Assembly (NCBI GenBank): GCA_024275575.1 | Contig: JAJRYV010000089.1 | Location: forward strand, 1-49,892 | Direction of reading: 5' to 3' | Length of the DNA stretch: 49,892 nt | Origin: a bacterium | GTDB lineage: Bacteria > Zhuqueibacterota > Zhuqueibacteria > Zhuqueibacterales > Geothermadaptataceae | Shown: in pieces, positions 502 to 44,196 of the stretch | How positions within the stretch are numbered: the stretch's first letter is position 1 | Layout: each line of letters starts with the position of its first letter | Program-made: the position numbers and the translations under genes | Notes under the pieces: generated by a model | The model's input: only the letters and a program-made list of their open reading frames with translations | Told to the model about the DNA's origin: nothing | The model's database searches: none

Positions 502-820
502 CTTTCCCTCAGATCTTCATTTTTTTTGAATAAAGTCTGCCAATGTATTTAATTCCCGCCAGAGTTTCAAGGCTTATTTCGGTTCAATATCTCAAATTGT
601 ATTGCTCCGGCAGACATGCCGCGCAACAGGCGGTAGAAAACACAAAACCCCGGTAAAAAATTCCCACCGCATGCTGCATATTGTAGAAACTGAATTGTGT
701 TTGTAAAAATTAACAATTCTGCGATTTTGGGCGACAATAAAAAAGGATGACCGACGCGTGAATTGTTGATTTTTCCATAGGCTGACTTTTGTGTGCGCTT
801 ATTTTGCAATGGAGCCCCTG
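502..820. other. Divergent intergenic region without a recognised gene
   Basis: This 319-base spacer separates yggX (minus) from the repeat-rich surface protein (plus) and must hold both promoters. I see no convincing paired -35/-10 elements and no plausible gene; a minus-strand frame at 567-809 has no family resemblance and no ribosome-binding site. Confidence 0.4.
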
Positions 821-10256: not shown

Positions 10257-13200
10257 TCAGCGCAGCAAGAGCATTTTTTTTACGGCAGTGAATTCACCGG
10301 CCAGTAGCTTATAGAAATAGTTACCTGAACTCACCGATATTCCTCCATCATTTTTGCCATCCCAAATAATATGATAGCGGCCTGCCGGTTGTTTTTTATC
10401 GCGAATGAGATGGCGCACCAGCATACCGCGGATATCATATATTTTTAAAGAAACAACAGCAACCCGCGGTAAATCAAACTGGATTGCAGTTCTCGGGTTG
10501 AAAGGATTGGGAAAGTTCTGCTGCAAGGCAAAAGTTTTAACAACGGTAAAATCACTTCCTCTGGAGACAGCGCTTTCTTTCGGCTCGTGGAAAAAATTAC
10601 CGAGTATGTATTCGATGTTCCGGCGCAACTGGTTGTGGTTGTAGCGATAAGGCCTGCCGCTGATGAAAACAAATTGCCCGCCGCTTTGCTTCAATCTGCC
10701 ACCCGCCACCGGCCTGCGCCATGCACCCAGCCCGCGGTAGCCGTTAAAAGAAACTGTCTCACGGAACAAGAGCTTACTTTCCGGATTGGTCAAAGCGGCA
10801 TCGAACACCGATACCAATGATTGTGGCCCGGTGATTATCATACTTTCCAGACTGCCGTGCACCGCGTTACAGTTTGAAATTCGCGTCCGTTTTTCACGCC
10901 ACGACACTCCAAGATAATCCGTTAAACCAGGATCGAGGAAACTATCACCAAGACGGGCCATCAGCAGGACGTTGCCGCCGAGTTGCAGGTATGGCAGAAT
11001 AGGTGTCTCCTGCCAGCTCGCCAGATCCCCGCCATAATTATTGCCGACCCAGATGATAGCGCTATACTGAAAAAGTACTTCCCGGGGCACGGCGCCATGT
11101 CCGACAGGCTGTGAAATATAGGCCGGATAACCATCATCCGGGGCAGCAAAACAATCCCAGAAGGTGATCGGATAATCGCCGTAAAACGCCTTATCCCAAT
11201 AGGCTGAGTAAATTTCTTCGCCATAGGTACCGAAGGAAACACCGTTGACCAGCAAAATGCCTTTTTGCAGTACTCGCGAATTGTCATTGCTCGATCCCGG
11301 CGTCGCAACCTGCAATGCGCTCACATTTTCACTGCCATCCGGCAAACGCCCCACTGAAGCATCGACAGCCTGCGGCCCGAAAGTCAGGTCATCGATGACA
11401 TGTGCCGAATCAGCGACAGCCTGGCTCAGAAAAATGTGCTCGCCATCGCCGTTGAGCTGAAATCCGAGATGCAGCACACCTTGTGATTCATCATTATCCG
11501 CCCAGAGGACTTTGAACTCACCCGGCTGAATAGTTGTCTCCTGCGCTGCGGTGGTCTGGATCCGGTACTGATTTCCACGTGCAGAATCCTCACTGAAAAA
11601 CAGCCCTCCGAGATCGACGGGGCGATCGCCTCCGTTATATATTTCAATCCAATCGTCAAATTCGCCATTTTCATCCGCGATGAATGAACTGTTGCGCGCC
11701 ATAATTTCATTGAGATAAAGCTTTGAGATGGAAGTCACTTTATTTGCAGCCCCCGGGCTGCCGCCATCAGTAAAACTGGCGCGCCAATTGGCATAATAGA
11801 GATTCTCCTGCTGCGTATCGCGCAATTCGAGCGAGGGCCCGCCACCGTTGGCAACCGCAGGCCAGCCGGTAATTTGATTATAGTTTACGAGATCGACGAC
11901 TTTTCCGGCGCTGTTTTTCAATTCGACATTACCCCAATTATCTGCCAGTCCGACACCATCCCAGGTAAATGTGCGGTAACCTTTGCCGCTATAGCGATCG
12001 CCATCCCGCGCGACGATGATATACTCTCCTGCTTCTAATATACTGCCCAGAGGAAAAGTAAAATCGATGGGAGATGAAAGCGTATAACCTGAAATATCCA
12101 TCTTTTGGGCTGAAGCGTTGAATATTTCGATAAATTCGTCATTTTCGCCTTGTGCCGGGGCGTAGTGAATTTCAGTGATTAGCGCCGAGAACTTTTCCGT
12201 GATATCGAACGGATATGCGCCCATATCAGCACGCGTGCCATCAGGATCGTTTTCGTTGGCCGGATCACCGGAATCGATCGCCGGAGAATTGACCTGCAAA
12301 CGAAATTCATTTGCCAGCAACGGGTCGCTGAAAATATTGCTGGCGCCCGGAATTTCCATCGTAGCGCAAATCGAATAATTGATGCTCAGGTCTGATAAAT
12401 TATCAACAAAATAGGGTGAATTTTTCGAACGGCTGAAAATGCTGTTTACCACATCTGCACTGCCCCCGCCGGCGCCGATATTTTTCTCAAAAACTGCGAT
12501 GCCGATCGCATTGCCGTAAAAAGTATTGCGATCGACTTTGGCGTAGGAACCGCTATCTTTAATGCCGATCCCCTGCCCGCAATTGACGAGGACATTATTT
12601 TTCACCACCGCCGTCGATGCCTGACCGATGGATATGCCCTTGTCGGCACAGTTAAAAATCAGGTTGTTTTCAATGCGCACATTACGGCAGGTCTCGCCGA
12701 GATCGATGCCGTCGCTGTTGAAACCCATAAAATTGTAGATGCGGTTACTCCGCACGATGGCAGAATCGACGCCATCGAGATCGATAGCGTCTGTATCGTA
12801 AGAACGATAGCCGCGCAAATCGTTATTTTCGATGAGCGCCGAAGCGGCGTATTTAATATTGATGAGATCTGCGGTTTTTTCGATGTAAAATAAACATTCA
12901 CGGATAATCACCTCACCATACTGCACAAAAACCGGAAAAACGGCATCGATAATTTCAACATTTGAAAGCGATAGCTTCGAGCGATAGGCTGAAATGGCGC
13001 CGGTATATTTCTGACGATCCACACCGTTGGTTGCCCCCTGTAATTTAACATGCGAAATGACGGATGAATCACCGGCGCTATCGAAACAGAGCGCCCCCCA
13101 GCGCTCGACACCCGAAGCGCTGTTCGCCCGGATGATAATCGGCAGTCGTGCCGTGCCGCGCATCTGTATTTTGCCGCGAACGTAAATACTGGCCTTTTCC

Positions 13201-15644: not shown

Positions 15645-15984
15645 CACCTCTCCCTCAATATTTAATGCGAAATTATTCAAACAGGAATCTGAAATTCTTG
15701 AAATTTCTCAATAGCAGCAGATTGCAGATACAAGTTAGACTAAAAAGAAAGTCGATGGTTCAATTTTGAAATGTAAGCTACACTTTTTTCGCGTCACTGT
15801 TCAGCAAGTCATCTGCACCATTGCGGGCTTGATATAAAAGTAATTGCAGCAGGGTTAAACCTTTCAGGTTAATTTAACTGTTGGCCTTTTGATATTTTTT
15901 TCGAAATTTGTCATGTGTACTGCTGCAAATGACTTTCCACTTTATTTTTCAAAACTATTTTCAAAGAAGGCAGGAGCGAGAAAA
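15645..15984. other. Divergent intergenic region
   Basis: This 340-base spacer lies between the giant CotH protein (minus) and the NTF2-like gene (plus). It is AT-rich. I see a direct GGTTAA repeat near 15855-15875 but no convincing promoter pair, hairpin or gene. Confidence 0.35.
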
Positions 15985-22853: not shown

Positions 22854-23004
22854 CTATTTATCGAGTGTGAGTTACGGTTTGCCCGTAGCAGGCCCACCGT
22901 GTTTCCCGTTTGCAAGCTCCATTTTTCCTAACAAAAGATTCGTTTGAAATTAATGGACTGGTTTATTATAATCAAGCAACAATTTTAACGGAGGGTTGGA
23001 AATA

Positions 23005-24285
23005 ATGTTACGCCAGGCAAAAGAAAAAATCGATCCGTTGTTACAACGTGGCCGCGAACAACTTGACCCCCTGGTCGATCAGGGGAAAAACTGTTACAAA
23101 CGATATGAAAAGTTTTATCCCGTACTGTTTTTCCTGAGCGGATTTATTTATGACAGCCTGACTTTGCAAATTGAAAATACGTTCGATCATTTTGCCCTGT
23201 TATTCTATATTCTTCTCGCCGGTATCATGATTCTTCTCATCGGCATGATAGAAACCGGCCAGATCATTGATAAAAAAATCCTGCAGTTTAAAAAGTGGTA
23301 TCCCAATTTTTTGCAATTTTTACTGGGCGGGCTTTTTTCTGCCTATGTGGTGTTTTATTTCAAAAGCGCAGCCATCAGCAAATCGCTGCTATTTGTCAGT
23401 TTGTTAGTCATTTTGCTGGTTTTAAATGAATTTTTTCACCAGAAAATGGTCAATATCACTTTTTTATGCACGTTATACTTTTTCTCCACTTTTGCCTTCC
23501 TGACATTTTTTCTGCCCATTCTCACTCACAAGCTGGATACCGCAACATTTTTCTCCAGCGGCATCATCGGTTTTTTAATTACCGCAGCCATCGTCACCGT
23601 TATTTACCGGCAAATTTTTAAAGACGATCCCAGGACGATTCTTAAAAAAGCCAGCCCACCAGTCGTCGTTTTCGGGGTGATGAGTTTTTTCTATTTGGCA
23701 AACTGGATTCCCCCCGTCCCACTTTCAATGAAAGACGGTGGAATCTATCATTATGTAAAAAAAGACCACGGCAGCAAGACTTACACGGTGAAATACTATA
23801 AAGACTGGGGACTCAAATTCTGGGATGACAGCGATACTATTTATCCCTGGGCGCCGGGGGACACCGTCTTTTGCTACGCTTCAGTTTTTGCACCGATCGA
23901 CTGGCAGGCGACGGTTTTTTATCAATGGTACAAATACGATGATACTGCTGAAAAATGGCGGCGGCGTGACCGCCTGAGTTATAAAATCAGCGGCGGGCGC
24001 AAGGGTGGCTATCGCGGTTATACCTACAAAAAAACATCGAAGCAGGCGAATGGCGGGTCGATATTGAAACGGACCACGGACAGGTGCTGGGGCGCATCGA
24101 TTTTGAAGTCGTCGAATCCGGCATCGAAAAAGGTGAAGAATTTATTTCACAAAAGTAAGGCGCGGGGGCCTCAGGCAAGAAGTACTCCGGGGGTTATGCG
24201 CTCGTCTTTTCCAAATCCGAATACCGGTTTAAAAAAAGGCAGCAGTTTCCTGATGCCCTTTTTTATTTTCAGCTTTGACGTGTAA
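23005..24285 (+). CDS. DUF2914-type membrane protein with a frameshift near its C-terminus
   Basis: The start at 23005 follows GGAGGG. The frame encodes a cytoplasmic Lys/Arg-rich head, then about seven hydrophobic segments (roughly residues 40-235), then an extracytoplasmic domain (HYVKKDHGSKTYTVKYYK, WYKYDDTAEKWRRRDRLSY, GGRKGGYRGYTYKK) that resembles DUF2914. At a run of seven A (24028-24034) the family-like sequence jumps to the -1 frame, where it continues EAGEWRVDIETDHGQVLGRI and ends at a stop at 24156-24158. The frame given here instead runs to 24285 through low-similarity residues and overlaps the convergent gene by 17 bases. One extra A would restore a 384-residue product. Sequencing error, a real mutation or slippage are all possible. 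Function unknown. Confidence 0.72.
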   Translation: MLRQAKEKIDPLLQRGREQLDPLVDQGKNCYKRYEKFYPVLFFLSGFIYDSLTLQIENTFDHFALLFYILLAGIMILLIGMIETGQIIDKKILQFKKWYPNFLQFLLGGLFSAYVVFYFKSAAISKSLLFVSLLVILLVLNEFFHQKMVNITFLCTLYFFSTFAFLTFFLPILTHKLDTATFFSSGIIGFLITAAIVTVIYRQIFKDDPRTILKKASPPVVVFGVMSFFYLANWIPPVPLSMKDGGIYHYVKKDHGSKTYTVKYYKDWGLKFWDDSDTIYPWAPGDTVFCYASVFAPIDWQATVFYQWYKYDDTAEKWRRRDRLSYKISGGRKGGYRGYTYKKTSKQANGGSILKRTTDRCWGASILKSSNPASKKVKNLFHKSKARGPQARSTPGVMRSSFPNPNTGLKKGSSFLMPFFIFSFDV

Positions 24286-25624
24286 AACCAATAGGATAAA
24301 CGATAGTGACCTCGCCTTTTGAAATCGATGCATATTTGAAACGGCGCACAGCATTGATAATCTCTTTTTCAAAATTGGGATTACCGAAATTGGAAGATAG
24401 TACGGTAACCGTCTTCACCTTACCGCTGGGAGAAATCACGACTTCGAGCCGCATCAGCCCACCGAAATTGGGGTCTTTTTTCAAGTAGCGATTATAGATA
24501 AAGCGCAGCCGTCCCATGTTGGCCTGGATGACGTCGAGCAGGGAAGTTTCGTTGCGGGCGCCGCGGGCTTCTGCAGAGCCTTTCACGCTTTCAACACGGT
24601 CCAGTTTGACCATCGGTCGTTTTTTCAGATCGACACTGCTTTCGATACCAGCCGGATCACCAAGCAAATCTTCAATACCGCCAGAAGCGAGGGCGCCGAA
24701 GATATCATCATTATCGAGAATATCGTTGCCAGCGTTTCTCTTTGTTCCCACGGTCAATCCCTGCGAACCACTGACGGTGCTCAATTGTGCAGCAAGGTTA
24801 TTGTTGAGCAATTTCTCAGCGACAGAGCCTGTTTTGCTGGTACTCGAGCTGCCGATGAGCGCCATCAATCCGCCTGCCGGGGCGCGGCGTTTTTTAGCTC
24901 TCGAATTATTGCGTGATTTACGCTGCGGTTTTTTATTTTTACGGGATTTCTTTTTTTCGGTTTTTTTGTCTTCTTTATCTTCTTCCAGAGGTTTGATATC
25001 TTCGACAAGCGGTTTTTCTTCAACTTTTGGTGGTTCGATGATAAACCGCGAAATGCGCCGGATGACCTCATCCGTGCTTTGCTTCGGTTTTGGGGGCGGC
25101 ACATAATCGCGCAGGCTGTACAAAGCAGCGCTGTGAAAAAGAATCATGCTCGTAACCAGACCTTTGAACAACGCGTCTTCTTTCAGTTGCATCCAAAAGA
25201 CGCGGCTCTTTTTAAAACCGTAAAATTCGAGCGGCCGTATCGACGGCTGCGCCGCTTTTTGTTCGATTAAAAAATCGATACGGGTGTTGCCGAAAAAAAC
25301 ATAACCCATTTTCTCCGGTTTGATCGGCAGCAAATAAACACCCTGCCGGCGCGGCAGCAATTCGTGCTCGATGAGATCCGCAAATTTCAGACTTGATTGT
25401 TTGGTGCTGATCTCGCCCTGAACCCCGGGGGGAATTTGCATTAAGAACTGGCCGTTTTGGGCAATAAACAAAGTATGTCTGCCGGGCAATCCAGCTTCGC
25501 GCAGCCGCAAATCATTGCGGTCATCGCGACCAATAGAGAACGCGCTTTTATCGCGCACATAATGATGCCGGATTTCGCCGTGTTGCTCTATTCGAAGATG
25601 TAAAACTGTATTTTGATTAGACAT
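24269..25624 (-). CDS. FHA domain - transmembrane - TonB-like (AgmX/PglI C-terminal) protein
   Basis: A 451-residue inner-membrane protein. An N-terminal cytoplasmic FHA-like domain (about 8-118) shows FSIGRDDRNDLRL with Gly32-Arg33, His50 and Asn57-Gly58; the usual phospho-binding Ser of SxxH is Pro47. One transmembrane segment lies at about 153-170. A Pro-rich, then Lys/Glu-rich linker (174-250) follows, as in TonB-type spacers, then a Gly/Ser-rich stretch, and a TonB-like C-terminal domain at about 362-448 (VIQANMGRLRFIYNRYLKKD, then GLMRLEVVISPSGKV, FKYASISKGEVTIVYPIGF). This composite is that of Myxococcus PglI/GltG and NfsG proteins, which couple a proton-driven stator to outer-envelope parts. 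It is the last gene of the operon, eight bases after an ExbD gene. Confidence 0.85.
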   Translation of the reverse strand: MSNQNTVLHLRIEQHGEIRHHYVRDKSAFSIGRDDRNDLRLREAGLPGRHTLFIAQNGQFLMQIPPGVQGEISTKQSSLKFADLIEHELLPRRQGVYLLPIKPEKMGYVFFGNTRIDFLIEQKAAQPSIRPLEFYGFKKSRVFWMQLKEDALFKGLVTSMILFHSAALYSLRDYVPPPKPKQSTDEVIRRISRFIIEPPKVEEKPLVEDIKPLEEDKEDKKTEKKKSRKNKKPQRKSRNNSRAKKRRAPAGGLMALIGSSSTSKTGSVAEKLLNNNLAAQLSTVSGSQGLTVGTKRNAGNDILDNDDIFGALASGGIEDLLGDPAGIESSVDLKKRPMVKLDRVESVKGSAEARGARNETSLLDVIQANMGRLRFIYNRYLKKDPNFGGLMRLEVVISPSGKVKTVTVLSSNFGNPNFEKEIINAVRRFKYASISKGEVTIVYPIGFTRQS

Positions 25625-25632
25625 AGACGCTA

Positions 25633-26139
25633 TTATTCCACCTTATAGACGGCGAGAAGAATATCACTGTACCCGACTACACCGCACGTTACCATGATCT
25701 TTTTCAAGATACGAAACGGGATTTCTTTATCCCCTTGAATTGTCACCTGCCCTTTAAAGCCGAAAGCGGCATTTTGTCGCCCCAGGGCTTCAGCGATTTC
25801 TTTTTTCTTCATCAACCCGGCTTTCAGGTTGGGAATTTCGTTGCTGTTGCTATTGGCCACTTGCGCCGTTCTGGCAACCGTCTGATCCTCAAGTACAATA
25901 AACTTTTCGGTGACTACGATGACCGGTGTTTGAGCGGGCTGCTTCTGTGCCGTAGAATTGGGCAAAACAAGATCTTCACGCACGGTCATAATTTGATCGG
26001 CTGAAAAGTTTTTCAGCAGGAAAACGAGCAAAATTGTAAACATGTCGATCATCGAGGTTAAACGAAGGCTGGGCGAGCCTTTTGCGCCACGGCGGTTCCG
26101 CGCGCCCAGGGTAAATTTATTTCCACTTAAATTCAGCAT
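25633..26139 (-). CDS. ExbD/TolR family proton-channel subunit with intact Asp
   Basis: A 168-residue protein with a basic N-terminus, one transmembrane helix at about 28-44 (LTSMIDMFTILLVFLL) and a periplasmic domain ending in IPFRILKKIMVTCGVVGYSDILLAV, the classic ExbD/TolR fold. Asp32 in SMIDMF is at the place of the proton-carrying Asp of ExbD, TolR and MotB-like stators. A periplasmic insert of about 50 residues (about 50-115) is longer than in ExbD. It follows the other ExbD gene by nine bases and precedes the FHA-TonB-like gene by eight. With ExbB it should form a stator complex that turns proton flow into movement of the TonB-like partner. Confidence 0.9.
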   Translation of the reverse strand: MLNLSGNKFTLGARNRRGAKGSPSLRLTSMIDMFTILLVFLLKNFSADQIMTVREDLVLPNSTAQKQPAQTPVIVVTEKFIVLEDQTVARTAQVANSNSNEIPNLKAGLMKKKEIAEALGRQNAAFGFKGQVTIQGDKEIPFRILKKIMVTCGVVGYSDILLAVYKVE

Positions 26140-26148
26140 AAAAAAATC

Positions 26149-26604
26149 CTATCCGGAAATGGAGACATTAGGAAAACCGTTATCACGGCATGCATCCATG
26201 ACATGCACAATCGTATCATATTTTATATTATCCGTCGGTTGCACGGTTACTTCCCGGATGTCGGGAAATGATTTCTTGAGTTTTTTCAATTCCTGTACTA
26301 GCTTATCGAATTGATAATCCGCACCGTTTTTTTTCACCATGCCGTTGATACGCGGCGCTTTGATGCGAATCTGGTTATCCTCAATTCGCAACATGATTAA
26401 AACAAGTGGTTTATTGCTTTTTTTCTTTGGTTGTTGCGGCATTGCAGCGGCTGAAGGCAGATTAAGTTCGAGGACAGCGATTCGAACAAATTCGGCTGTC
26501 AGCAAAAGAAACGGGATGAGCACGAGAAAGAGATTCATCACCGGTGTGATGTTGACCTCGTCATCCCCTCTGCCGCTTTTTGCTGAAGATCGTCTGTAGT
26601 TCAT
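26149..26604 (-). CDS. ExbD/TolR family subunit lacking the usual proton-carrying Asp
   Basis: A 151-residue ExbD/TolR homologue: basic N-terminus, VNITPVMNLFLVLIPFLLL helix (about 17-36), then a periplasmic domain with INGMVKKNGADYQFDKLVQ and VTVQPTDNIKYDTIVHVMDA, ending GFPNVSIS. In the family motif (VTPxxD) the acidic residue is strictly needed for proton flow in ExbD and TolR; here it is Asn24, coded AAT. The second ExbD in the operon keeps Asp, so this may be a structural partner in a mixed dimer. The gene starts three bases after the ExbB gene ends. It is not a pseudogene by any other sign. Confidence 0.9.
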   Translation of the reverse strand: MNYRRSSAKSGRGDDEVNITPVMNLFLVLIPFLLLTAEFVRIAVLELNLPSAAAMPQQPKKKSNKPLVLIMLRIEDNQIRIKAPRINGMVKKNGADYQFDKLVQELKKLKKSFPDIREVTVQPTDNIKYDTIVHVMDACRDNGFPNVSISG

Positions 26605-26607
26605 CTA

Positions 26608-27234
26608 TCAGTTCCTTGCGCTCACCATGCGACGATAAATTCGGGCGATATTTTCATTTATGTTGTCGATTAACGCATTGGTTTTTTCCTGAATGTAGGA
26701 ATAACCCAGCAGCGCCGGAATGGCGGCAATCAAACCGAATGCCGTTGTGTTCATCGCCACAGCGATACCCTGTGAAAGCAGCGTCGCTTTTTCTGCGGCC
26801 GGAGCGTTGGCGACCGCATCGAAGGATGAGATCAGCCCGAAGATCGTTCCCAGCAGGCCGAGCAGTGTCGCGATATTGGCGAACATGCTCAAATACTGGG
26901 TGCGTTTTTCCAGTTTGGGAATTTCTGCCATGGCAGCGAGCTCGAGGGCATTCTGGATATCGTTGGCGCTTTTGCCGTATTCTTCCAGGCCGGCGCGCGT
27001 AATTTGCGGCAAAGCGGCATCAGATGAATTGCAGATGCGAATGGCATCATGTACATTGCCGCGCTGCAGCAATTCGATCATCTTGTTGACGAATGCCGAG
27101 GTGTCGATGCGATTTTTCACGCTGATAAAAAGGAATCTTTCAATGATAATGGCAATGTTGATAATGAGTACGCCAAGAATGGCAAACATAAAAACACCGC
27201 CGCCGTCGAATGCACGAATTGCGTTGTCAAACAA
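26608..27234 (-). CDS. ExbB/TolQ/MotA family proton-channel protein
   Basis: A 208-residue inner-membrane protein with three hydrophobic segments: about 13-33 (GVFMFAILGVLIINIAIIIE), 118-138 (FANIATLLGLLGTIFGLISS) and 155-180 (GIAVAMNTTAFGLIAAIPALLGY). The family pore threonines correspond to Thr130 (LLGTIFG) and Thr163/164 (AMNTTAFG). The cytoplasmic loop includes the usual AMAEIPKLEKRTQYLS. It is shorter than E. coli ExbB and closer to TolQ and AglR in layout. It probably forms a pentameric channel around an ExbD dimer. It lies 118 bases after a small exported protein gene and three bases before the first ExbD gene. Confidence 0.94.
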   Translation of the reverse strand: MFDNAIRAFDGGGVFMFAILGVLIINIAIIIERFLFISVKNRIDTSAFVNKMIELLQRGNVHDAIRICNSSDAALPQITRAGLEEYGKSANDIQNALELAAMAEIPKLEKRTQYLSMFANIATLLGLLGTIFGLISSFDAVANAPAAEKATLLSQGIAVAMNTTAFGLIAAIPALLGYSYIQEKTNALIDNINENIARIYRRMVSARN

Positions 27235-27352
27235 GGTACGACCTCCTTTATTCTCTCAAGAAATATTGATTTTTTAGAAATTAAACTGTTTTCAGAACCA
27301 CAAAATAGATAGCCGCTTTAATATAAAAAAACTGTCGAAGAAAGATTTTACT

Positions 27353-27727
27353 TCACCAGGGAATGGTGCCGCGAAATTTTCGCCGTCCTTTTTGGGGGAA
27401 AAAATCTTTTTCCACCGGTCGAAAGATGTCATCGAGAAAAGAACGATCGATCTTCAGGCCATCTACTCTGGGATCACTTCCCGGAAGGATAAAAATAGCT
27501 TGCGGTTTTGAAAGTCTTCCAATGACATCGATCTGATCGAGCAGTATTTTAGAACGCTTCCCCGAAGATTTAATGTCAGGTTCCGGAAGATTTTCATAGT
27601 TACCAGAGGGTTGTTGGGTTGCTTTCGGTTTGGAAGGTTGCTTTTCCGGTTGCGTCTGTGCATTCCCTGCACCGACTGCAGCGCCCATGAGCAGAAGAAC
27701 CAACAACGTTGTGGCTGCAGTTTTCAC
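27353..27727 (-). CDS. Small exported protein in the Agl/Glt-like operon
   Basis: A 124-residue protein with a signal peptide (MKTAATTLLVLLLMGAAVGA, ending GNAQ). The next 35 residues are rich in Gln, Pro, Lys and Ser and look disordered. The C-terminal part (KILLDQIDVIGRLSKPQAIFILPG, then DDIFRPVEKDFFP) is more conserved in character. No family is recognised. It lies between the large TPR gene and exbB, so it is probably a periplasmic accessory part of the same machine. Confidence 0.68.
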   Translation of the reverse strand: MKTAATTLLVLLLMGAAVGAGNAQTQPEKQPSKPKATQQPSGNYENLPEPDIKSSGKRSKILLDQIDVIGRLSKPQAIFILPGSDPRVDGLKIDRSFLDDIFRPVEKDFFPQKGRRKFRGTIPW

Positions 27728-27802
27728 TTTAAAAACACCTCAAATCATCATTCATTTTTGTGGTTTTATTGCCAATCCATTGGCTTATACGCTAATTTGT
27801 TT

Positions 27803-30688
27803 TTAAAAATCACTTGTCATCTGACTGTTCGCCTGGGCTAAGCCGAGGACATTTTCCAATGCAGCAAGCCGGGTTCGGCTGCGGGCGATCCAGTCGTTTT
27901 CTATGTCGTTTTCTTCTCCCAGCTTAATGTTCGACCGGTAAAATTCCAGCGCTTTCTTTTGAAAGGGTTCCACTTTATTCCCTTTCAAGGTAGCTTCATA
28001 GGAAGTCATTTGCGTAGCATCTAATCCATCGGGACGCTCTGAAGTCCACCAAAAATGACCGAATTCTTCGAATGCTTCGCCGAGTTTGTGCAAAGCCGCC
28101 GTTTTCCAGTCGGCGATTTGATATGTCGCTGCATCATTGTACGCCTTTACAATGATTTGCAGAGAAGATTCTTTGCGTTTAATACTTTTTTGTAGCGGTT
28201 CCACCAGCCGAATTTTTAAATAATGGGTAAAGTAAACTTCGCCGAGCATGAACTGTGCCTGTGCGGCGTAATACTCATCGAGCACAACACCGGCATTGGC
28301 GTTGCGGCGGAAATAACGCAATGCTAATTCAAAAATACTTTTGGCGCGTTTGTAGTCTTTGCGTTTATAGGCTGCATCACCGGATTTGCACAAGGCTTCC
28401 AGGCGTTTTTCCGGGTCATCTTTATAAGTTGCTGCATAGGTTTCGAAGAGCTCGCCAGCGCGATTGTGGTTGCCTAGGTTTTCATAACACAGAGCAGCGT
28501 TGTAAAGTGCGGTCGAGGCAAATTCAGAATGCGGGCGCACCTTGACCAGTTCGAGATAATCTTCGGCCGCGCGGCGATAGTCCGGCAATTGCTCCGCTAA
28601 TTGCGCTGCTTTCATCAGGCTTTTATCCACTTGCTCCGATTCGGGAAAACGATGGCGCAGGTTCTCCAGTAAAATGATGGCTTTGCGAATATTGCCCGCT
28701 TCTTCATAACCTGTTGCCGATTGTATGATGGCTTTCTCCGCAACCTCCATTTTATTCGATGTCGAGGCGATAACCGCAAGCGCCCGTGAAGCCATCTCAA
28801 TATTGCCCTCTTCTTTCAGTTTTTCAGCAATTTTAAATTTTGCCGAAGCCACCATATCTTTGGCTTTGTCGACGTAGTACAACGAATCCGGGTAATCACG
28901 GGTGATGCGACGATACCAGCCCTCGGAGATCATATAATCGCCACTCTTATAATAGCTCTGCGCAATCATGCTGATCGCAGCAAGATTATACGGTGATTCT
29001 TCACCGCGATTGATCACCATTTTGTAGGCTTCCGCAGCCAGCTTATAATAGGAGAGCTGAAAAAGCGCTTCACCATATTTCATCATCACTTCAGGTAATT
29101 TTTCATCTCTTTTCAAAAAACGGGCAAAATCGTTACAAGCATGCAGCAGACTAGCGTAATTCTGATGTGGGATATTGAGTGTTTCACTGCGACCGGAACC
29201 GATAAAATCACCGATATAAACCACTGAAGAATCCGAGGTTACAGCGGCTGTCTGATCCATCATTTGCAGCGCTGAGATTACCCGGTTGTACCCGGCCATC
29301 GGTGCATATTTTGATTTGGAATAATTGACCACGACTTTTTCATAAGCCGTCATCGCACTGTTATAAGCACCTAATTCATAAAAACATTCTGCCTGATAGT
29401 ATTGCACCTTGGCTGCATCTTTGCTTTCGGGAAATTTTTCCAGATACATCATATAACGGGCCAGGGCAATTTTATAATCATCCGTAGATTTATTATCCCG
29501 TGCGCGTGCCTGGGCATCGGTGGCCAAAACATACAAATTTTTGCTCACTAGCTTCATCGTTGTGTCATAAAATCCACCTTCCGGGAATTTTTCCGCCCAA
29601 GCGCTGCCCGGCCCATAAGATGCAACCATGACATCGCGGGCTTTGTCAGCCTCGGCTTTTTTCCCGGCACGCACATAACCCTGGATTATCTTTTCCTGCG
29701 TTTCCGGCGCACGCGGCGCCATAGGCCAGATTCTCAGCATCAATTCATAGGTTTGCGCGGCTTCTTCGTAAAACGTGCGCTCTTCATAGAGTTCACCGAG
29801 ACGGATAAAAATGGCGCCGCTATATTCTTTCTCACCCATATCGATGAGAAATTTTTCCGCTGTTTTGGCACCGCCGATTTCAACAAAACATTCCGCCACG
29901 TAAGTAATCGCTTCCTCGCGCAGATCGCTGGCTTGCCCGCGCATACTATCTTCGCTGGCAGCAGCCGCACGGCTCAAATCGTCGATGAGAAAAATGAACG
30001 AGCTGATGGCCTTCTCATAGCGGTTTGTGTTATAATAAGACCAGCCTAGCTTATACAGAGCCATGTTAAAAAAGGGACCTTCGTAACTCGTCAGCAGGTT
30101 TGCATAAATCGCCGAAGCTTCTTCATATTTATGGTTTTCGAAATAGATTTCGCCGAGACGAAAACGGGCTTCATCTTTATATTCGCTTTCCGGATAATTG
30201 GCGATCAAGCGGCTGAAATATTCGGTTGCTTTATCTTTATCACCGGATTCAAAATGGCAGAATGCGATGCGATAAAGAACGCGGTCCAAGAAATCGGCGG
30301 TCGGGAAAGCCTCGATCAGTTCGAACGCTCGTTGAATGGTCGGCGTATAAGAAACGGTCGGCAATTCAGGTTGGGTCGATCGCTGCCCCCGATCGAACTC
30401 ATCCATTTCCTGCTCATATTTGCCCATTTCATGTTGATAAATGATCGTTGCTTTGCGATAATTCAACTCCATCAACTGATACATCACCGTCGGTGTAAAA
30501 TCACTATTGGGGTAATTTTCGATTAGCAGCTCATTGGCTTTGATCGCCTCATCAAGCTCGCTCAGCATTTCTGCTGTTTCAACGAGCACACCAATATTTG
30601 CCGAATCAGGCACTGTCTGCTCCTGCTGCGCATATAGTGTGCCGGCAAAAGCAGCGAGAATTAACATTACTTTTATCAGTTGTTTCAT
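27803..30688 (-). CDS. Large exported tetratricopeptide-repeat protein
   Basis: A 961-residue protein with a signal peptide (LIKVMLILAAFAGTLYAQ). Almost the whole mature chain is made of TPR-type helical pairs, for example ARFRLGEIYFENHKYEEASAIYANLL, ALYKLGWSYYNTNRYEKAIS, YYQAECFYELGAYNSAMTAYEKVV and ALYNAALCYENLGNHNRAGELFE. Outer-membrane-assembly-type spacing (FP-x-S, YPDS) between repeats is frequent. In the Myxococcus Glt and Nfs systems a similarly large periplasmic TPR protein (GltD/NfsD) is encoded with a shorter one (GltE/NfsE). By position and length I suggest this is the GltD-like part; direct sequence similarity is not shown. Confidence 0.83.
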   Translation of the reverse strand: MKQLIKVMLILAAFAGTLYAQQEQTVPDSANIGVLVETAEMLSELDEAIKANELLIENYPNSDFTPTVMYQLMELNYRKATIIYQHEMGKYEQEMDEFDRGQRSTQPELPTVSYTPTIQRAFELIEAFPTADFLDRVLYRIAFCHFESGDKDKATEYFSRLIANYPESEYKDEARFRLGEIYFENHKYEEASAIYANLLTSYEGPFFNMALYKLGWSYYNTNRYEKAISSFIFLIDDLSRAAAASEDSMRGQASDLREEAITYVAECFVEIGGAKTAEKFLIDMGEKEYSGAIFIRLGELYEERTFYEEAAQTYELMLRIWPMAPRAPETQEKIIQGYVRAGKKAEADKARDVMVASYGPGSAWAEKFPEGGFYDTTMKLVSKNLYVLATDAQARARDNKSTDDYKIALARYMMYLEKFPESKDAAKVQYYQAECFYELGAYNSAMTAYEKVVVNYSKSKYAPMAGYNRVISALQMMDQTAAVTSDSSVVYIGDFIGSGRSETLNIPHQNYASLLHACNDFARFLKRDEKLPEVMMKYGEALFQLSYYKLAAEAYKMVINRGEESPYNLAAISMIAQSYYKSGDYMISEGWYRRITRDYPDSLYYVDKAKDMVASAKFKIAEKLKEEGNIEMASRALAVIASTSNKMEVAEKAIIQSATGYEEAGNIRKAIILLENLRHRFPESEQVDKSLMKAAQLAEQLPDYRRAAEDYLELVKVRPHSEFASTALYNAALCYENLGNHNRAGELFETYAATYKDDPEKRLEALCKSGDAAYKRKDYKRAKSIFELALRYFRRNANAGVVLDEYYAAQAQFMLGEVYFTHYLKIRLVEPLQKSIKRKESSLQIIVKAYNDAATYQIADWKTAALHKLGEAFEEFGHFWWTSERPDGLDATQMTSYEATLKGNKVEPFQKKALEFYRSNIKLGEENDIENDWIARSRTRLAALENVLGLAQANSQMTSDF

Positions 30689-30801
30689 TTTACCTGCTTT
30701 TTTTTCTCTTCCGTCGAAGGTGCAAAATCAAGCTGATGGGCTATTTCACTTCAATCAAATCAAAAAAACTGTATCCTGCTTGCAAAATTCCGTGTATTCT
30801 A

Positions 30802-30914
30802 TTCAGCGTGCGCGCGAGAAACGCTCACAGAGCTTGCTGAAGGAAGGTGCGTTTCGGACAAGATGAGAGGATGCTCCCGCTTCGGCAGGCTCAGCGTCCG
30901 CATTATGCGCTGAA
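30802..30914. repeat. Dispersed-type palindromic repeat inside the operon
   Basis: Two nested inverted repeats: outer TTCAGCG (30802-30808) with CGCTGAA (30908-30914), inner GAGCTTGCTGAAG (30830-30842) with CTTCGGCAGGCTC (30880-30892), 13 pairs with two wobbles. The right arm CTTCGGCAGGCTC is a well-known wording of repeats scattered through many bacterial genomes. It occupies the 316-base gap between the two TPR genes; the rest of the gap holds nothing recognisable. Confidence 0.6.
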
Positions 30915-31004
30915 CGAGATACTATTCCGTGCGATAATTTGTTGTCAGGCCACGATGAAAACGGCCCCACGGTCTGTCGCTTGCCGCAATGATATAAATA
31001 CATA

Positions 31005-32366
31005 CTATGGGATGGTTTTTAAGAAATATGCCCGCGCTTTTCCATATTCCGAGTAGGCGCGCCAGTGCCGCCTGCTTTGTTTGATAAAAATATCCTCGCG
31101 TAATTGCAGCAAATTCCATTGAAACTCATCAAAAACAAGGCGCTCGTCGAGTAATTTTTGCATGAGATTATCCTGCGTTTTTTCGACACGATCCTGTTCC
31201 TGCTTTAAGTATAGCGGCACCTCATTGCGGTCATCGAGGGGCATAACATGCATGAGATCGCCTTCGAGAATGATCAGCCGAACACGCAACGCTTCAGCCA
31301 CTTTTTGTTGTTCAGCCAGCCCTTCTTTCACCTGTTCAATACGCTTTTCGATGTTGGCTTTGCGCGGATAGCGCTCGATGATATAATTGTATTCCTGAAT
31401 GGCAAAATCATAAAACTCGAGTTCGGTGTAGCATTGCCCCAAAAGGAAATGAGCTTCTTCATTATATTTGGGATCATCCGTGCGTTTCACCAGTTCATTT
31501 AGCGAGATGATCGCATGCTGATAATCGCCAAGTTTGATGGAAGCCCAGGCGCTGGCAAGCAATGCTTCAGGATAGGTTTCATCATGCACGGGAATTTTTG
31601 CATAGTGTTTGATTGCCTCACGGTAATAGCCCAATTCATAATACAGATAACCAAGCGTCAGATGTGTCATACGAATGAGGGCCTGCCGTTCCTGATTGAC
31701 CACCGGCAGCGTGAGCACGGCACGAAAAATATCCACCGCCTGCTCCATCTCTTTTTTCTTGAGATAAGAAAGCGCCGTGGTGTAAAGGCCATAATCATAA
31801 AATTCGCTGCTGTTATTAATCTGACTAAGTGCTTCAATCGCCGGGTCAAACTCCTGCAAGTGGTAATAGGCCATTCCACAATAATATTGGGCGCCATCAC
31901 GGGCTTTGCTGTCGCCATAGTTTTCCACAATACGATTGTAAAACTGAATGGATTTTTCATAACCTCCGGCGCTGTACTGGATTTTCTGCAAGCCGAGATA
32001 GGCACGCGGTGTAAAATTGCTGCCGTGAAAATTCTCCACAAAATACTGATACATACGTTCCGCAGATTTGTACATATTCATCTTGTACAAGCATTCGCCA
32101 ATATAAAAAACCACACCGTCGATTTGACTGAATTCACTATAAAAATCGAGAATGATGACGAGCTCGCGCGCAGCTTTCCAGTATTCCTTGTTCTTATATT
32201 GTTCGATCGCGTTCTGGAAAATTCGCAACGAGGCTTTTTCGATGTCGCGGTCTTTGCCGCGCAGCAAATAGGATGAAGTGGCAGCGAAATTTTGCCCGAC
32301 AAAAGAAAAGAGCATGCCGGCAATAATAGCAGCGTTGAACCATTTTTTCAGGTTATTTTTTTGCAT
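31005..32366 (-). CDS. Exported tetratricopeptide-repeat protein
   Basis: A 453-residue protein with a signal peptide (KWFNAAIIAGMLFSFVGQNFA). TPR-type repeats fill about 45-330: GVVFYIGECLYKMNMYKSAERMY, AYLGLQKIQYSAGGYEKSIQFYN, YYCGMAYYHLQEFDPAIEALS, LLASAWASIKLGDYQHAIISL and AHFLLGQCYTELEFYDFAIQEY. The C-terminal 120 residues (KRIEQVKEGLAEQQKVAEALR, later QEQDRVEKTQDNLMQKLLD) look like a coiled coil. Size and place beside a larger TPR protein and a barrel match GltE/AglT or NfsE of Myxococcus. It starts nine bases after the end of the barrel gene. Confidence 0.83.
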   Translation of the reverse strand: MQKNNLKKWFNAAIIAGMLFSFVGQNFAATSSYLLRGKDRDIEKASLRIFQNAIEQYKNKEYWKAARELVIILDFYSEFSQIDGVVFYIGECLYKMNMYKSAERMYQYFVENFHGSNFTPRAYLGLQKIQYSAGGYEKSIQFYNRIVENYGDSKARDGAQYYCGMAYYHLQEFDPAIEALSQINNSSEFYDYGLYTTALSYLKKKEMEQAVDIFRAVLTLPVVNQERQALIRMTHLTLGYLYYELGYYREAIKHYAKIPVHDETYPEALLASAWASIKLGDYQHAIISLNELVKRTDDPKYNEEAHFLLGQCYTELEFYDFAIQEYNYIIERYPRKANIEKRIEQVKEGLAEQQKVAEALRVRLIILEGDLMHVMPLDDRNEVPLYLKQEQDRVEKTQDNLMQKLLDERLVFDEFQWNLLQLREDIFIKQSRRHWRAYSEYGKARAYFLKTIP

Positions 32367-32375
32367 ATGCGCTCA

Positions 32376-33431
32376 TCATTTATTGTCATTTGGGGCGCCG
32401 GCATTTTGCGGTTGACCGGCGGATTCCTTTTTCAGCACTTTTTCAATTTCCAACATCGAGTCGAGATAATTATCGCGAGATGATGATTTTGCGCCGGATG
32501 CAGCAGCCGGTTTCACAGGAATTTTTCCCCGTTTGCGGGTTCTGTTTTTCTTTTTTTGAATAGAAAACGGATAATTTAACCCGAAGATAAACTTCCAGTC
32601 TGCATATTGCTTGCGAAACTCATTGCCGGCATCGCACACCTCGGCATTTGCAGAAAGAGAAATATCAAAAGCAAAATCATAAATCAGATCCCAGGGCCCA
32701 AGAAATTTCAACCCCTGCGTCAGGCGCTGTGAATTCATGTTATAGGCTGTGATAAACGCATTATTGGCAAAAATTTCTGCGCTGTATTCACTATAGAAGA
32801 TGGCTGAATTCACCGGAAATTTCAGCCCTGTGGCGAGCAGATATTGATCTTCGATATTTAAAAAGAACCGGTCATGAATATTTTGGTCAAAATAGCCGAG
32901 ATTAAGATGCCATTTTAACGGAAATGAAGAAAATATTTCCATGAAATCAACCGTCAGTAATGCCATCCCCGCAACGCCGGCTTCACGGGATGAATACGGT
33001 TCGTATTTTATATTCAAATCACGCCCGGTCGGCAAGTTAACATACAACTGCAACGCCGTGTGTATCATTGCATTTGAAAAAGGCGTGCGGATTTTTAAAC
33101 CCAGGCGGCTATCACCGGGAGCGCCCCAAATATTATTCTGGTCGTCCTGATAGGGTTTAAAGTGAGCAATCAATTCGACATGGCGGTTCAGGCCGAGAGT
33201 AAAATTGGTCACAATGCCATAGTTTTTCGTCATACTGGTGGCGTCTTTTTCCAGCAGCATAAAAGCCGAAAAATACGAATTGACATAGAATTTATTGATG
33301 CCGATCAGTTCGGCGGATTGGGTGCGCAGCAGACCGCGCCCCCCGAACATCGTGGTTTGGGCTAATAGCTGATGGCTAAAAAAATATAAAAACAGAATAG
33401 CCAAAGCAAATTGCGAGCGTTTATTCATCAT
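32376..33431 (-). CDS. Putative outer-membrane beta-barrel protein, first gene of the operon
   Basis: A 351-residue protein with a signal peptide (QFALAILFLYFFSHQLLAQ). The mature part has alternating strands with aromatic ends: FYVNSYFSAFML, YGIVTNFTLGLNRHVELIAHF, SRLGLKIRTPF, MIHTALQLYVNLPTG, HLNLGYFDQN, WKFIFGLNYPFS. After a basic stretch (KKKNRTRKRGKIPVK) the last 60 residues look disordered. The pattern is that of an outer-membrane barrel of the type encoded with Glt and Nfs machines (GltA, GltB, GltH), but no named family is assigned. The operon probably begins upstream of 33431; the start could be either of two adjacent ATG codons. Confidence 0.72.
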   Translation of the reverse strand: MMNKRSQFALAILFLYFFSHQLLAQTTMFGGRGLLRTQSAELIGINKFYVNSYFSAFMLLEKDATSMTKNYGIVTNFTLGLNRHVELIAHFKPYQDDQNNIWGAPGDSRLGLKIRTPFSNAMIHTALQLYVNLPTGRDLNIKYEPYSSREAGVAGMALLTVDFMEIFSSFPLKWHLNLGYFDQNIHDRFFLNIEDQYLLATGLKFPVNSAIFYSEYSAEIFANNAFITAYNMNSQRLTQGLKFLGPWDLIYDFAFDISLSANAEVCDAGNEFRKQYADWKFIFGLNYPFSIQKKKNRTRKRGKIPVKPAAASGAKSSSRDNYLDSMLEIEKVLKKESAGQPQNAGAPNDNK

Positions 33432-34030: not shown

Positions 34031-34681
34031 ATGAAACTGCTCAAGATTTTTAATTTTGCCGTACTTTTTTGTTCCGTATTGTTTGCGAGCTCGGCTTCGC
34101 TCTATGCACAGTTTAAACCTTCTGCCATAAAAATCGGCTATTTGAATCCTAAAGATGCTGATTCCGGTTTGTTGCTGGGTTTCGACTTTGCAACGCCGAT
34201 CGATGAAACCGTGGAACTGGGGGTCTCGAGTAATTTTTTCTATACCAACTACAATAAGGTTTCCACTGTCGCCATCGCCGATCCGCAGGGTGGAATTCAG
34301 GAAACAACCAAACAGCAGGAACTGGAATATACCACCTTCTCAATCCCGTTGTATGCGATGATTAACATCGTGATTCCCTCAACTCGTTTTTTTGGCTATC
34401 AATTGCACGGCGGTTTGGGGTATGAGTTTTTGTTTAACAAAGAAAATAATTATAAAGAAAATACCAGTGAAAGAAGACGCTATAGCGGGTTGAGCTGGGA
34501 GACCAGTGCAGGTTTTCATTACATCATCGGTAGCCGCTCCGCTTTGACCGGTGAAATTCTCTATCACTCAGCCAAACCCTCGCGCAACAAGACTTCTTCA
34601 AAAGCGGGTTTGCCGACCTGGAGCGAAGTCAATTTAAGTGGTTTTGGTATTCGCTTCGGCATCCGTTTTGATATAATATAG
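34031..34681 (+). CDS. Outer-membrane beta-barrel protein
   Basis: A 216-residue protein with a signal peptide (FNFAVLFCSVLFASSASLYAQ). The mature part reads as an eight-strand-type barrel: AIKIGYLN, LLLGFDFATPIDETVELGVSSNFFY, TTFSIPLYAMINIV, FGYQLHGGLGYEFLF, WETSAGFHYIIGSRSALTGEILYHS and the closing strand FGIRFGIRFDII, whose hydrophobic end is usual for barrel insertion. It most resembles the generic outer membrane beta-barrel (porin-like, OmpX/OmpW size) domain. Ligand and role are unknown. It starts 599 bases from the divergent Agl/Glt-like operon and 157 bases before the rhomboid gene. Confidence 0.78.
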   Translation: MKLLKIFNFAVLFCSVLFASSASLYAQFKPSAIKIGYLNPKDADSGLLLGFDFATPIDETVELGVSSNFFYTNYNKVSTVAIADPQGGIQETTKQQELEYTTFSIPLYAMINIVIPSTRFFGYQLHGGLGYEFLFNKENNYKENTSERRRYSGLSWETSAGFHYIIGSRSALTGEILYHSAKPSRNKTSSKAGLPTWSEVNLSGFGIRFGIRFDII

Positions 34682-34838
34682 AATTTACCCGGCAAAACCG
34701 ATGACTAAGCTAAGGGTATTTTGCATGAAAAAGATAAACGTCATTACAAAAACCTGAACACCAGCGTCGTTGATCAGCATATTCCGAGTTTATCCATCCG
34801 GTTTTTGCTTTATATTTAATCCAGTTTGAGGAGAGAAA

Positions 34839-35684
34839 ATGAACTATCAGACCCAGAGATTCCAATTTGGCTTGGGGCCTGGAATGACACAAATGGTGAA
34901 AACACTGATTCTTGTGAACATCGGTGTTTACGTTATTCAAAATCTGTTCATTTCTTTCTTTGATATCGATTTTAATGGTCTTTTTGGGCTTGTGCCGGTC
35001 TATTTTCTCTACAATCTCTTCATCTGGCAAATCGTCTCATATATGTTTTTGCATGGCTCAATTTTACATATTCTCATCAATATGCTGATTTTGTGGATTT
35101 TTGGCGTTGATCTCGAGCGTGAATGGGGTGGTAAAGCATTTCTTAAATACTATTTTGTCTGTGGCATTGGCGCCGGCCTGATCCAGATTCTCTTCAACCT
35201 GCTCTTCTTCCCGGAAAATCAAGGTATCCCGATCATTGGTGCTTCCGGTGCAATTTATGGTGTGATCCTGGCCTTCGCGCTGATGTATCCTGAGCGTGAG
35301 TTGACATTCCTCGTCTTCTTTATTTTGCCGGTGCGCATCAAAGCCAAATACCTAGCGATGATCCTGGCCGGGATATCCCTTTTTTCCGGCGTATTCGGCG
35401 CAGATAACGCCGTTGCTCACTTTGCGCATCTCGGTGGAATGTTTGTAGGATTACTTTACTTAAAGTTCGACTGGCAAATGTATAGCATCGCAGCACAGTT
35501 TCAGAAACGGCGTGAAAACAAACACATCATCCAGCAGGCTAAAAAACGGCAGAAAGAAGAAGAAATCCGCGCCGAAATGGATGCTTTACTCGATAAAATC
35601 AATGAAGTCGGATACGAAAATTTGACTGAGCAGGAGCAAGCTGCTCTCAGACGAGCGAGTCAATATTTGAATGAAGAACAGTAA
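34839..35684 (+). CDS. Rhomboid family intramembrane serine protease
   Basis: A 281-residue membrane protein with six predicted transmembrane segments between about 20 and 210. Catalytic Ser136 lies in GASGAIYG and His197 in AHLGG; the oxyanion-helping Asn81 is in HILINML. It starts with GGAG upstream. The last 70 residues (QKRRENKHIIQQAKKRQKEEE) form a charged cytoplasmic helix. Rhomboids cut transmembrane segments of substrate proteins within the membrane; substrates here are unknown. The gene end overlaps the amidase gene by 14 bases, so the two are translationally coupled. Confidence 0.94.
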   Translation: MNYQTQRFQFGLGPGMTQMVKTLILVNIGVYVIQNLFISFFDIDFNGLFGLVPVYFLYNLFIWQIVSYMFLHGSILHILINMLILWIFGVDLEREWGGKAFLKYYFVCGIGAGLIQILFNLLFFPENQGIPIIGASGAIYGVILAFALMYPERELTFLVFFILPVRIKAKYLAMILAGISLFSGVFGADNAVAHFAHLGGMFVGLLYLKFDWQMYSIAAQFQKRRENKHIIQQAKKRQKEEEIRAEMDALLDKINEVGYENLTEQEQAALRRASQYLNEEQ

Positions 35685-37305
35685 TTGTACCAGCACAATC
35701 CGGCGTTATTCTCTTTTTGCATTTCTCATTCTGTTTTTCCATTTGCATGACGCAGTTTTCTGCCAGGCACGCAAAACCGCAATCATGCTGAACGGCGTCT
35801 ATGAAGATTTGCCCACCGTTCAGCTCAACCAATCACCGGATTTTGAATTTGTTGCGCTGAAAAAGCTGGCAAAAATTCTAAAAACCTACCCGATTATCAG
35901 CCAGAAAACACACAAAGCAATTTTTCACATCGGCGATACTGAAGTCAAAGTGACTGCGCTAAACCCATTCGTCATGCTGAATAATACCGTTCTGCAAATG
36001 CCGGTTGCCGTCGCCTACGAAGGCGGGGAAATATATCTGCCCGTTCCGTTTTTCGTCGATCTCATCGCACCGGTTTTTCCCGGGCAACTTACCAGTATTG
36101 AAAATCGCCGGTTCGTTTCCAACAAAGTTTCCCCGGCGCAGTCGTTTATCGCCGACATCACCCCCGATCCGATCGTTGCCTTACGCCAAAATACGGAAGA
36201 AAGCAACAACGAAAAGGAAGATATGGGGCCGGGGAAAAAACTGTTGCCCAGGGTCACGGGTATTTACACCGTCGAAAAAGCCAACGGGACGTTGATTCGT
36301 ATTAAAACCTCCAGCGTCATCCCGCAAACCTATATCAATTCGCGTTCAACCCGCGGTTGGTTATATATCGATATATTTGGCGCAGTTGTCGATACGCTCA
36401 ATGTTTATCAGGAGAATGAGAGCCGTTTTATTCAGGAAATCCGCCCGGTGCAACTGCCGCAGATCGCACAATTGTCATTTCTGCTGTCCGGTCCGCTGGA
36501 TTCAAAAAAAATCTTTTCCAACCCGAAATCGCAGGAAATCCTGGTTTCCCTGACAACACGTAAACAGATATCTGCCAACATTATCAAAACACTTGAGGAT
36601 GAGCGGAAAAAATGGCTGATCGACACCATTATTCTCGATCCGGGACACGGCGGCCGTGACCCGGGCGCCATCGGCCCGCGCGGGACTTACGAAAAAAATA
36701 TCACCCTGGCTATTGCCCGCCATCTCAAATCGATCATCGAAAAAGAAACCGATATGCGGGTGGTAATGACGCGCCAGAACGACCGGTTCGTCTCTTTAAA
36801 AGAGCGCACGAAACTGGCCAACCGTGAACAGGGCAAGTTGTTTATCAGCATTCATGCGAACTCGAATCGTAGCCATAAAGTTAGCGGCCTGACCACTTAC
36901 TTACTCGGGGCAGCGCGAACAGAGGAGGCTATCGAATCGGCGAGGCGAGAAAATGCGGTAATTCGCTACGAATCAGACAGCACGTCATATGCTGATTTTA
37001 ACACGGAGAACTATATCTTGGCCAGTATGGCACAAAATTCCTATCAACAGGAAAGCGAGGAATTTGCCGCATTGATGCAGGATGAAATTTCTCAACGCAC
37101 CTCGGTAAAAAACCGCGGCGTAAAACAGGCGGGTTATTACGTCCTCATCGGCGCCTCGATGCCCAACGTCTTGATTGAAACCGGATTTATCTCCAACCGC
37201 CGGGAAGAAAAACGCCTCAATTCCTATCAGTTTCAGAAAAAAATTGCCCGCGGCATTTTTGAAGGGATCATCAAATTTAAAACAAAATATGAGCGTGGTA
37301 TTTAA
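35671..37305 (+). CDS. N-acetylmuramoyl-L-alanine amidase (AMIN + Amidase_3)
   Basis: A 544-residue exported protein; a signal-like segment lies at about 11-32. Residues about 40-150 resemble the copper amine oxidase N-terminal-like stalk domain (VALKKLAKILKTYP, then MLNNTVLQMPVAV). Next is an AMIN domain (about 195-305), which in AmiC targets the division septum. The catalytic Amidase_3 domain (about 315-540) has the zinc ligands His in DPGHGGRDPGA, Glu in YEKN, and His in ISIHANS, with the catalytic Glu in IETGFIS. It cleaves the amide link between MurNAc and L-Ala in peptidoglycan in the periplasm. Its start overlaps the rhomboid gene by 14 bases and lacks its own strong ribosome-binding site. 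Confidence 0.93.
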   Translation: MKNSNCTSTIRRYSLFAFLILFFHLHDAVFCQARKTAIMLNGVYEDLPTVQLNQSPDFEFVALKKLAKILKTYPIISQKTHKAIFHIGDTEVKVTALNPFVMLNNTVLQMPVAVAYEGGEIYLPVPFFVDLIAPVFPGQLTSIENRRFVSNKVSPAQSFIADITPDPIVALRQNTEESNNEKEDMGPGKKLLPRVTGIYTVEKANGTLIRIKTSSVIPQTYINSRSTRGWLYIDIFGAVVDTLNVYQENESRFIQEIRPVQLPQIAQLSFLLSGPLDSKKIFSNPKSQEILVSLTTRKQISANIIKTLEDERKKWLIDTIILDPGHGGRDPGAIGPRGTYEKNITLAIARHLKSIIEKETDMRVVMTRQNDRFVSLKERTKLANREQGKLFISIHANSNRSHKVSGLTTYLLGAARTEEAIESARRENAVIRYESDSTSYADFNTENYILASMAQNSYQQESEEFAALMQDEISQRTSVKNRGVKQAGYYVLIGASMPNVLIETGFISNRREEKRLNSYQFQKKIARGIFEGIIKFKTKYERGI

Positions 37306-44152: not shown

Positions 44153-44196
44153 CTGCAGACACCTTATTAAGTTAATCATTGGCGAAAGATTTGAAG

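Follow-up and report, generated by a model that had tools for sequence, protein, structure and literature searches.

The DNA stretch considered here (the window) is a bacterial contig of 49,892 nucleotides (JAJRYV010000089.1, assembly GCA_024275575.1) belonging to a Calditrichota genome of 4.96 Mb. Sequence comparison places an operon of eight genes on its minus strand (24269-33431) in the Glt core family, already on record, as one of its divergent members, and the product is probably a force transducer of that family that spans the envelope and is driven by protons. Its composition, gene order and conservation were established, as was the homology of its GltG, GltD and GltF parts and of its ExbB-ExbD-ExbD motor. 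A preliminary description, made from the sequence alone, had proposed a compact relative of the Agl-Glt and Nfs machines of Myxococcus; the observation holds, and the reading is upheld in part. A close relative is the Calditrichaeota metagenome-assembled genome CLD2, in which the protein with a forkhead-associated (FHA) domain is 82% identical. Three features of the group are new, namely an invariant Asn/Asp split between the two ExbD proteins, a recurrent frameshift in the GltC-like gene, and the presence of SprA and type IX C-terminal tails without a detectable GldM.

All eight open reading frames (ORFs) were found in the place, strand and order given before: outer-membrane barrel, small tetratricopeptide repeat (TPR) protein, large TPR protein, small exported protein, ExbB, ExbD1, ExbD2 and a GltG-like protein. 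Counted from the barrel gene downward, the intergenic gaps are 9, 316, 75, 118, 3, 9 and 8 bp; the spacing, earlier called mostly 3-9 bases, is thus that tight in four of the seven gaps and much wider in the other three. In a Pfam search, ExbD was matched by two of the window ORFs and MotA_ExbB by another; TPR matches were numerous, and the one to TonB_C was marginal.

The FHA-TonB protein was matched in 60 of 60 genomes in the first survey. The eight window proteins, and afterwards class hidden Markov models (HMMs), were then used to search larger stretches around the GltG-like gene, the class being represented by 40 loci. In 30 of these the order is the same for all eight genes, confirming the conserved linkage that the relationship had been expected to show, and the same operon occurs in five Calditrichota outside the class. 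Six loci are short of recognised genes at the end with the barrel, in some cases because the contig stops there. The remaining four, all of family f10 (G030, G051, G055 and G056), have the order barrel-TPR-TPR-small protein-GltG-like without the three motor genes. An arrangement of this kind is far beyond chance. The genes flanking the operon in the window are conserved no further than the genus or family, save for scattered single matches, which marks the eight genes off as a module of their own.

The GltG-like protein (24269-25624, minus strand) consists of a cytoplasmic FHA fold, a transmembrane (TM) helix at about residues 150-169, a disordered linker and a TonB/AgmX-type C-terminus. It matched the NCBIfam GltG model with 86 bits, under the equivalog cut-off of 650 bits. 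Its C-terminus scored 67.8 bits with the AgmX/PglI domain (myxo_SS_tail, cut-off 40) and 32.6 bits with TonB, so that the domain is much closer to AgmX/PglI than to TonB. Both the GltG and the AgmX/PglI models matched all 41 aligned family members. Pfam missed the FHA domain of the window protein, and it found an FHA or FHA-like Yop-YscD domain in few family members only. Modeling using AlphaFold2 followed by a Foldseek search revealed an FHA fold at residues ~5-121 (top match: Rv1747 FHA-1) and a TonB-type fold at ~388-448. In the f10 loci (L075, L076, L077 and L078) the GltG-like protein has no FHA domain and carries an added N-terminal coiled-coil-like stretch; in three of the four, a His lies in the TonB-like TM helix, as if the protein were coupled to another motor.

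The exported proteins were compared with a genome reached by a broad search of other phyla, G109 (9.0 Mb). It contains a GltE match of 772 bits, far above the cut-off, and an MglB gene adjoining another cluster, and it presumably belongs to a myxobacterium. The 961-aa exported TPR protein (27803-30688, minus strand) was assigned to GltD by class HMM and tree, and it aligns over about 900 residues, most of its length, with the one GltD-type protein of G109 examined in detail. The GltD-like class HMM matched G109 with 304 bits in the cluster beside GltE, 319 bits in the Nfs-like cluster and 559 bits in a third paralogue; the GltG-like class HMM gave 118, 101 and 181 bits, respectively. This third cluster scored with the NCBIfam models GltC (74 bits), GltE (120 bits), CglF (30 bits) and GltG (181 bits), all under the equivalog cut-offs. 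The 124-aa exported protein (27353-27727, minus strand; motif DKIE.xG.xxKPQAxFIIPG...RSFF..IFR) had no direct NCBIfam match, and its class HMM matched the CglF-type protein of G109 (37 bits, E 2e-12). On these alignments, the large TPR protein, the small protein and the FHA protein can be taken as homologues of GltD, GltF/CglF and GltG, respectively. Together with the profile scores of the C-terminal domain and the conserved linkage, they uphold the proposed kinship with Agl-Glt and Nfs.

The place of the 453-aa exported TPR protein (31005-32366, minus strand) rests on gene position and a weak profile match. Against the protein in the GltC position of G109 its class HMM scored 70 bits, and the NCBIfam GltC model matched 25 of 30 members of the family, more weakly than generic TPR models. 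Identification as GltE was rejected mainly on position, the class HMM also favouring the GltC-position protein in G109. In G095 the order was reversed (43 bits for the GltE-like and 29 bits for the GltC-like protein), and TPR scores alone are therefore not decisive. Thus, of the small and large TPR proteins equated earlier with those of the Myxococcus machines, the large one corresponds to GltD, and the small one stands in the place of GltC, not GltE. The top scores of both were in generic TPR models, as had been named as a possible objection; such scores are expected of any TPR protein.

The barrel protein (351 aa; 32376-33431, minus strand) has a signal peptide. Its AlphaFold2 model, with 12 strands and a C-terminal helix, had a pLDDT of 84.7 and a pTM of 0.74, and the family alignment included 31 sequences. 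The best PDB match found by Foldseek was the amyloid exporter FapF (template modelling score, target, 0.55-0.65); at a sequence identity of 10-14% this likeness is a resemblance of fold only. By position alone, the barrel gene stands as the GltA and GltB genes do relative to gltC in Myxococcus.

The motor comprises an AglR-like ExbB/TolQ-type protein (26608-27234; PF01618, 98.9 bits), an AglQ-like ExbD1 (26149-26604; PF02472, 77.2 bits) and an AglS-like ExbD2 (25633-26139; PF02472, 52.7 bits), all on the minus strand. The ExbB class HMM gave 196 bits to the best motor locus of G109, where the ExbB-ExbD-ExbD trio was also found. ExbD1 carries Asn24 (codon at 26533-26535, minus strand) at the proton-carrier position, where ExbD/AglQ usually has Asp. 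This Asn occurs in 37 of 37 class sequences and in the five other Calditrichota (motif ITPVMNLFLVL), and ExbD2 keeps the Asp (Asp32 in the window) in 37 of 37. The same Asn was found in ExbD1 of a second, paralogous system of the phylum, and four of five relatives examined from other phyla have Asn, the fifth having Ser. The two ExbD pairs of G109 that best match the class HMMs have Asp in both subunits. In Myxococcus, the AglQ substitution D28N abolishes motility and sporulation (PMC3858216). A homodimer of the Asn-bearing subunit should not conduct, which leaves the work to a mixed pair or to a homodimer of ExbD2; the pattern suggests that the Asn- and Asp-bearing subunits form an obligate heterodimer with a single proton site. 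It bears on the formation of an AglQ/AglS heterodimer, a question left open in the literature (PMC9389320).

The Glt core complex outside gliding bacteria, including Fibrobacter, was described by Luciano in 2011, and its group B core genes are gltC, gltD, gltE and gltG with aglR, aglQ and aglS (PMC3169522). The present operon resembles that core in its homologues of GltG, GltD and probably GltC, in one ExbB and two ExbDs, in their linkage and in its occurrence in bacteria not known to glide, and the GltF/CglF-like small protein adds a further likeness. It differs in having no GltE, a single barrel gene at the 5' end, Asn in the AglQ-type ExbD and a clade of its own. In trees of GltD and GltG (quick trees with some long branches), the Calditrichota system-I proteins form one clade outside Glt and Nfs, with values of 98-99 in the Shimodaira-Hasegawa-like approximate likelihood ratio test (SH-aLRT). 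The likeness to Agl-Glt of Myxococcus covers the motor type, the FHA-TM-TonB architecture of GltG, GltD, GltF, the position of GltC and the presence of a barrel; however, the Calditrichota operon has no GltE, GltH-K were not identified in searches not aimed at them, the match of its GltD-like protein is only 304 bits, and its Asn/Asp pair contrasts with the two Asp residues of both myxobacterial pairs examined. The Nfs genes nfsA-H form a single cluster, in an order homologous to gltA-H (PMC3858216), and the Calditrichota genes likewise form a single operon, but Nfs borrows AglRQS from elsewhere, whereas here the motor lies inside the operon. The Nfs-like GltD of G109 (319 bits) also falls well behind the third paralogue (559 bits). 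With the type IX motor GldLM, described in the literature as the proton-driven ExbBD-like motor of the FCB group, the comparison ends at the motor type; GldM was not found above the cut-off in the 60 Calditrichota genomes.

Several observations weigh against the assignment to the Glt core family. GltE is missing from the operon: there is no gene between those of the GltD-like and the small protein, and a genome-wide search with the GltE model gave nothing in the window genome at 1e-15 and only weak TPR matches of at most 90 bits in relatives. The assignment of the 453-aa protein to GltC depends on position and weak TPR similarity. Finally, the motor-less f10 loci imply that the module is not always driven by a motor of its own, and in three of the four f10 genomes the nearest ExbB of the whole genome scores no better than ~94 bits.

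If the operon works as a transducer of the Glt-core type, protons would, by analogy with Agl-Glt, Ton and Tol, flow through five ExbB subunits that surround one ExbD1 and one ExbD2, the Asp being present in ExbD2 only. The resulting movement would then reach the TM helix of the GltG-like protein. The TonB-like end of this protein would cross the peptidoglycan and pull the small GltF-like protein, which would share its place at the outer membrane with the barrel and the TPR scaffold of GltC- and GltD-like proteins. The FHA domain could serve as an entry of cytoplasmic control. Such a model fits the comparison of GltG/J to TonB and of GltF to a TonB box (PMC9389320) and the reported AglR-GltG contact (PMC3858216). 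Since the operon is present nearly throughout the class, a general task in the envelope is more plausible than gliding, and this task is most likely the moving or seating of an outer-membrane complex together with surface cargo. No function was assigned in 2011 to the Glt core of non-gliding bacteria (PMC3169522), and none has been reported since in the open-access literature searched. In Calditrichota the core is nearly universal, compact and contained with its motor in a single operon, which makes the phylum well suited to finding out the function of the core.

A general envelope task would also be met if the operon stood in for Tol-Pal in constriction and maintenance of the outer membrane, an explanation that we consider unlikely but worth keeping in mind. 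It accords with the near-universal presence of the operon and with the distribution of TolB_N (PF04052), which gave no match in the window genome and none in most of the class; the matches above the cut-off, in 22 of 60 genomes, were all weak. The TPR proteins also score with CpoB/YbgF models, but YbgF matches are to be expected for any TPR protein, the weak TolB matches occur in many relatives, and the parts of the operon are closer to Glt than to Tol.

More doubtful is the idea that, in a phylum lacking GldLM, the operon supplies type IX secretion with its energy. SprA_N was above the cut-off in 58 of the 60 genomes, the operon is present almost wherever SprA is, and the window genome contains 131 type IX C-terminal tails. 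GldM (PF12081, GldM_1st) was not above the cut-off in any of the 60 genomes, while the same search gave 158 bits in G142; one sub-threshold GldM-like match in G052 (L083) had no GldL-like neighbour in the stretch. The premise of the preliminary description, that gliding in this lineage is tied to GldLM and type IX secretion, therefore fails on the side of GldM, and the absence of this protein beside an intact-looking translocon is a testable gap. Nevertheless, the operon is not linked to SprA, which lies on another contig in the window genome, and family f10 keeps SprA with the motor genes lost. Other ExbB loci exist, including a second Glt-like system, and the match to PorW/SprE is of the generic TPR kind. 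The motor of the second system lies ~17-22 kb from SprA in family f1 only, which was taken as local synteny. A broader proposal, in which type IX secretion in all Calditrichota would be powered by a Glt-type machine whose ExbD heterodimer has one proton site, and in which many of them would set the dose of the GltC-like scaffold by programmed recoding at a conserved A10 run, seems to us improbable.

Still less probable is a gliding machine equal to Agl-Glt, in which the motor would move the TPR-barrel complex along the cell. Several parts are indeed homologous to Glt, but the Calditrichota proteins lie outside the gliding clade, GltE is missing, and the AglQ-type subunit bears the change that paralyses the Myxococcus motor (PMC3858216). 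Moreover, the core alone is insufficient for gliding and is found in non-gliders (PMC3169522), and what the genome paper on Caldithrix abyssi describes is flagella and type IV pili (PMC5317091). The earlier suggestion that the operon drives motility thus found no support. An ordinary TonB energiser for nutrient uptake, which the TonB-like C-terminus, ExbB and ExbD might recall, was rejected on profile scores and fold and is hardly credible, given the higher score of the AgmX/PglI model, the FHA domain, the two unlike ExbDs, a 12-stranded barrel without a plug and a far better TonB_C match (81.5 bits) at the C30 locus of the same genome.

The GltC-like gene of the window is in frame at its LKKK site (AAG AAA AAA; 31752-31760, minus strand), and the frameshift therefore concerns the family and not the window copy. 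Fifteen genomes, which come from seven families (f1, f2, f7, f11, f15, f17 and f21), have the gene split by a -1 shift at the same LKKK codons, in a run of A10 or A11 (loci L042, L043, L044, L049, L050, L055, L057, L079, L167-L170, L172, L178 and L179). Adding one A in silico restored a stop-free protein in 15 of 15 cases. Nine of the ten runs of at least 10 A in 728 kb of loci lie at this site. Both halves are under purifying selection, with a ratio of nonsynonymous to synonymous substitution (dN/dS) of about 0.03-0.18 where dS was finite, and the split required five changes on the GltD tree versus about ten with shuffled labels. The same site, the same direction and purifying selection make an assembly error unlikely. 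Independent translation of the second half was also rejected, as most of the 15 have no start codon near the junction, although G008 and G013 do have an ATG there. The pattern suggests programmed recoding, either transcriptional slippage or ribosomal frameshifting. Selection against long A runs is known, as is a transcriptional frameshift that gives two lengths of the type VI secretion protein TssM (PMC1088944, PMC4256274). If recoding is true, the site would be a deeply conserved case in an envelope machine. No earlier report of the recurrent poly-A frameshift, the Asn/Asp motor, the absence of GltE or the loss of the motor in f10 was found in the open-access literature searched.

The second Glt-like system of the phylum (L117, L122, L171 and L173-L176) has a GltD-like protein of ~1500 aa and a GltG-like protein without FHA; in the window genome it is represented only by a motor and a divergent GltD-like gene (L108). 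Nine more MotA/ExbB-type matches were found in this genome, several of them adjoining large TPR genes (G000:C39, C76, C30 and C52; L108, L110, L111 and L114), and its C30 ExbB-ExbD-TonB locus resembles an ordinary TonB energiser.

Large surface proteins are encoded in the window at 10257-15680, 44179-46623, 791-4447 and 46708-49848, among them two CotH-kinase/lamin-tail proteins and one PKD-repeat protein. The operon had been suggested to move these nearby adhesins; such a link was rejected, as the type IX tails are spread over the whole genome and their number makes the window unremarkable. The flanks of the operon (22996-24285 and 34031-37305) encode a DUF2914-like membrane protein, a small outer-membrane protein, a rhomboid protease and an N-acetylmuramoyl-alanine amidase, which are kept in close relatives only.

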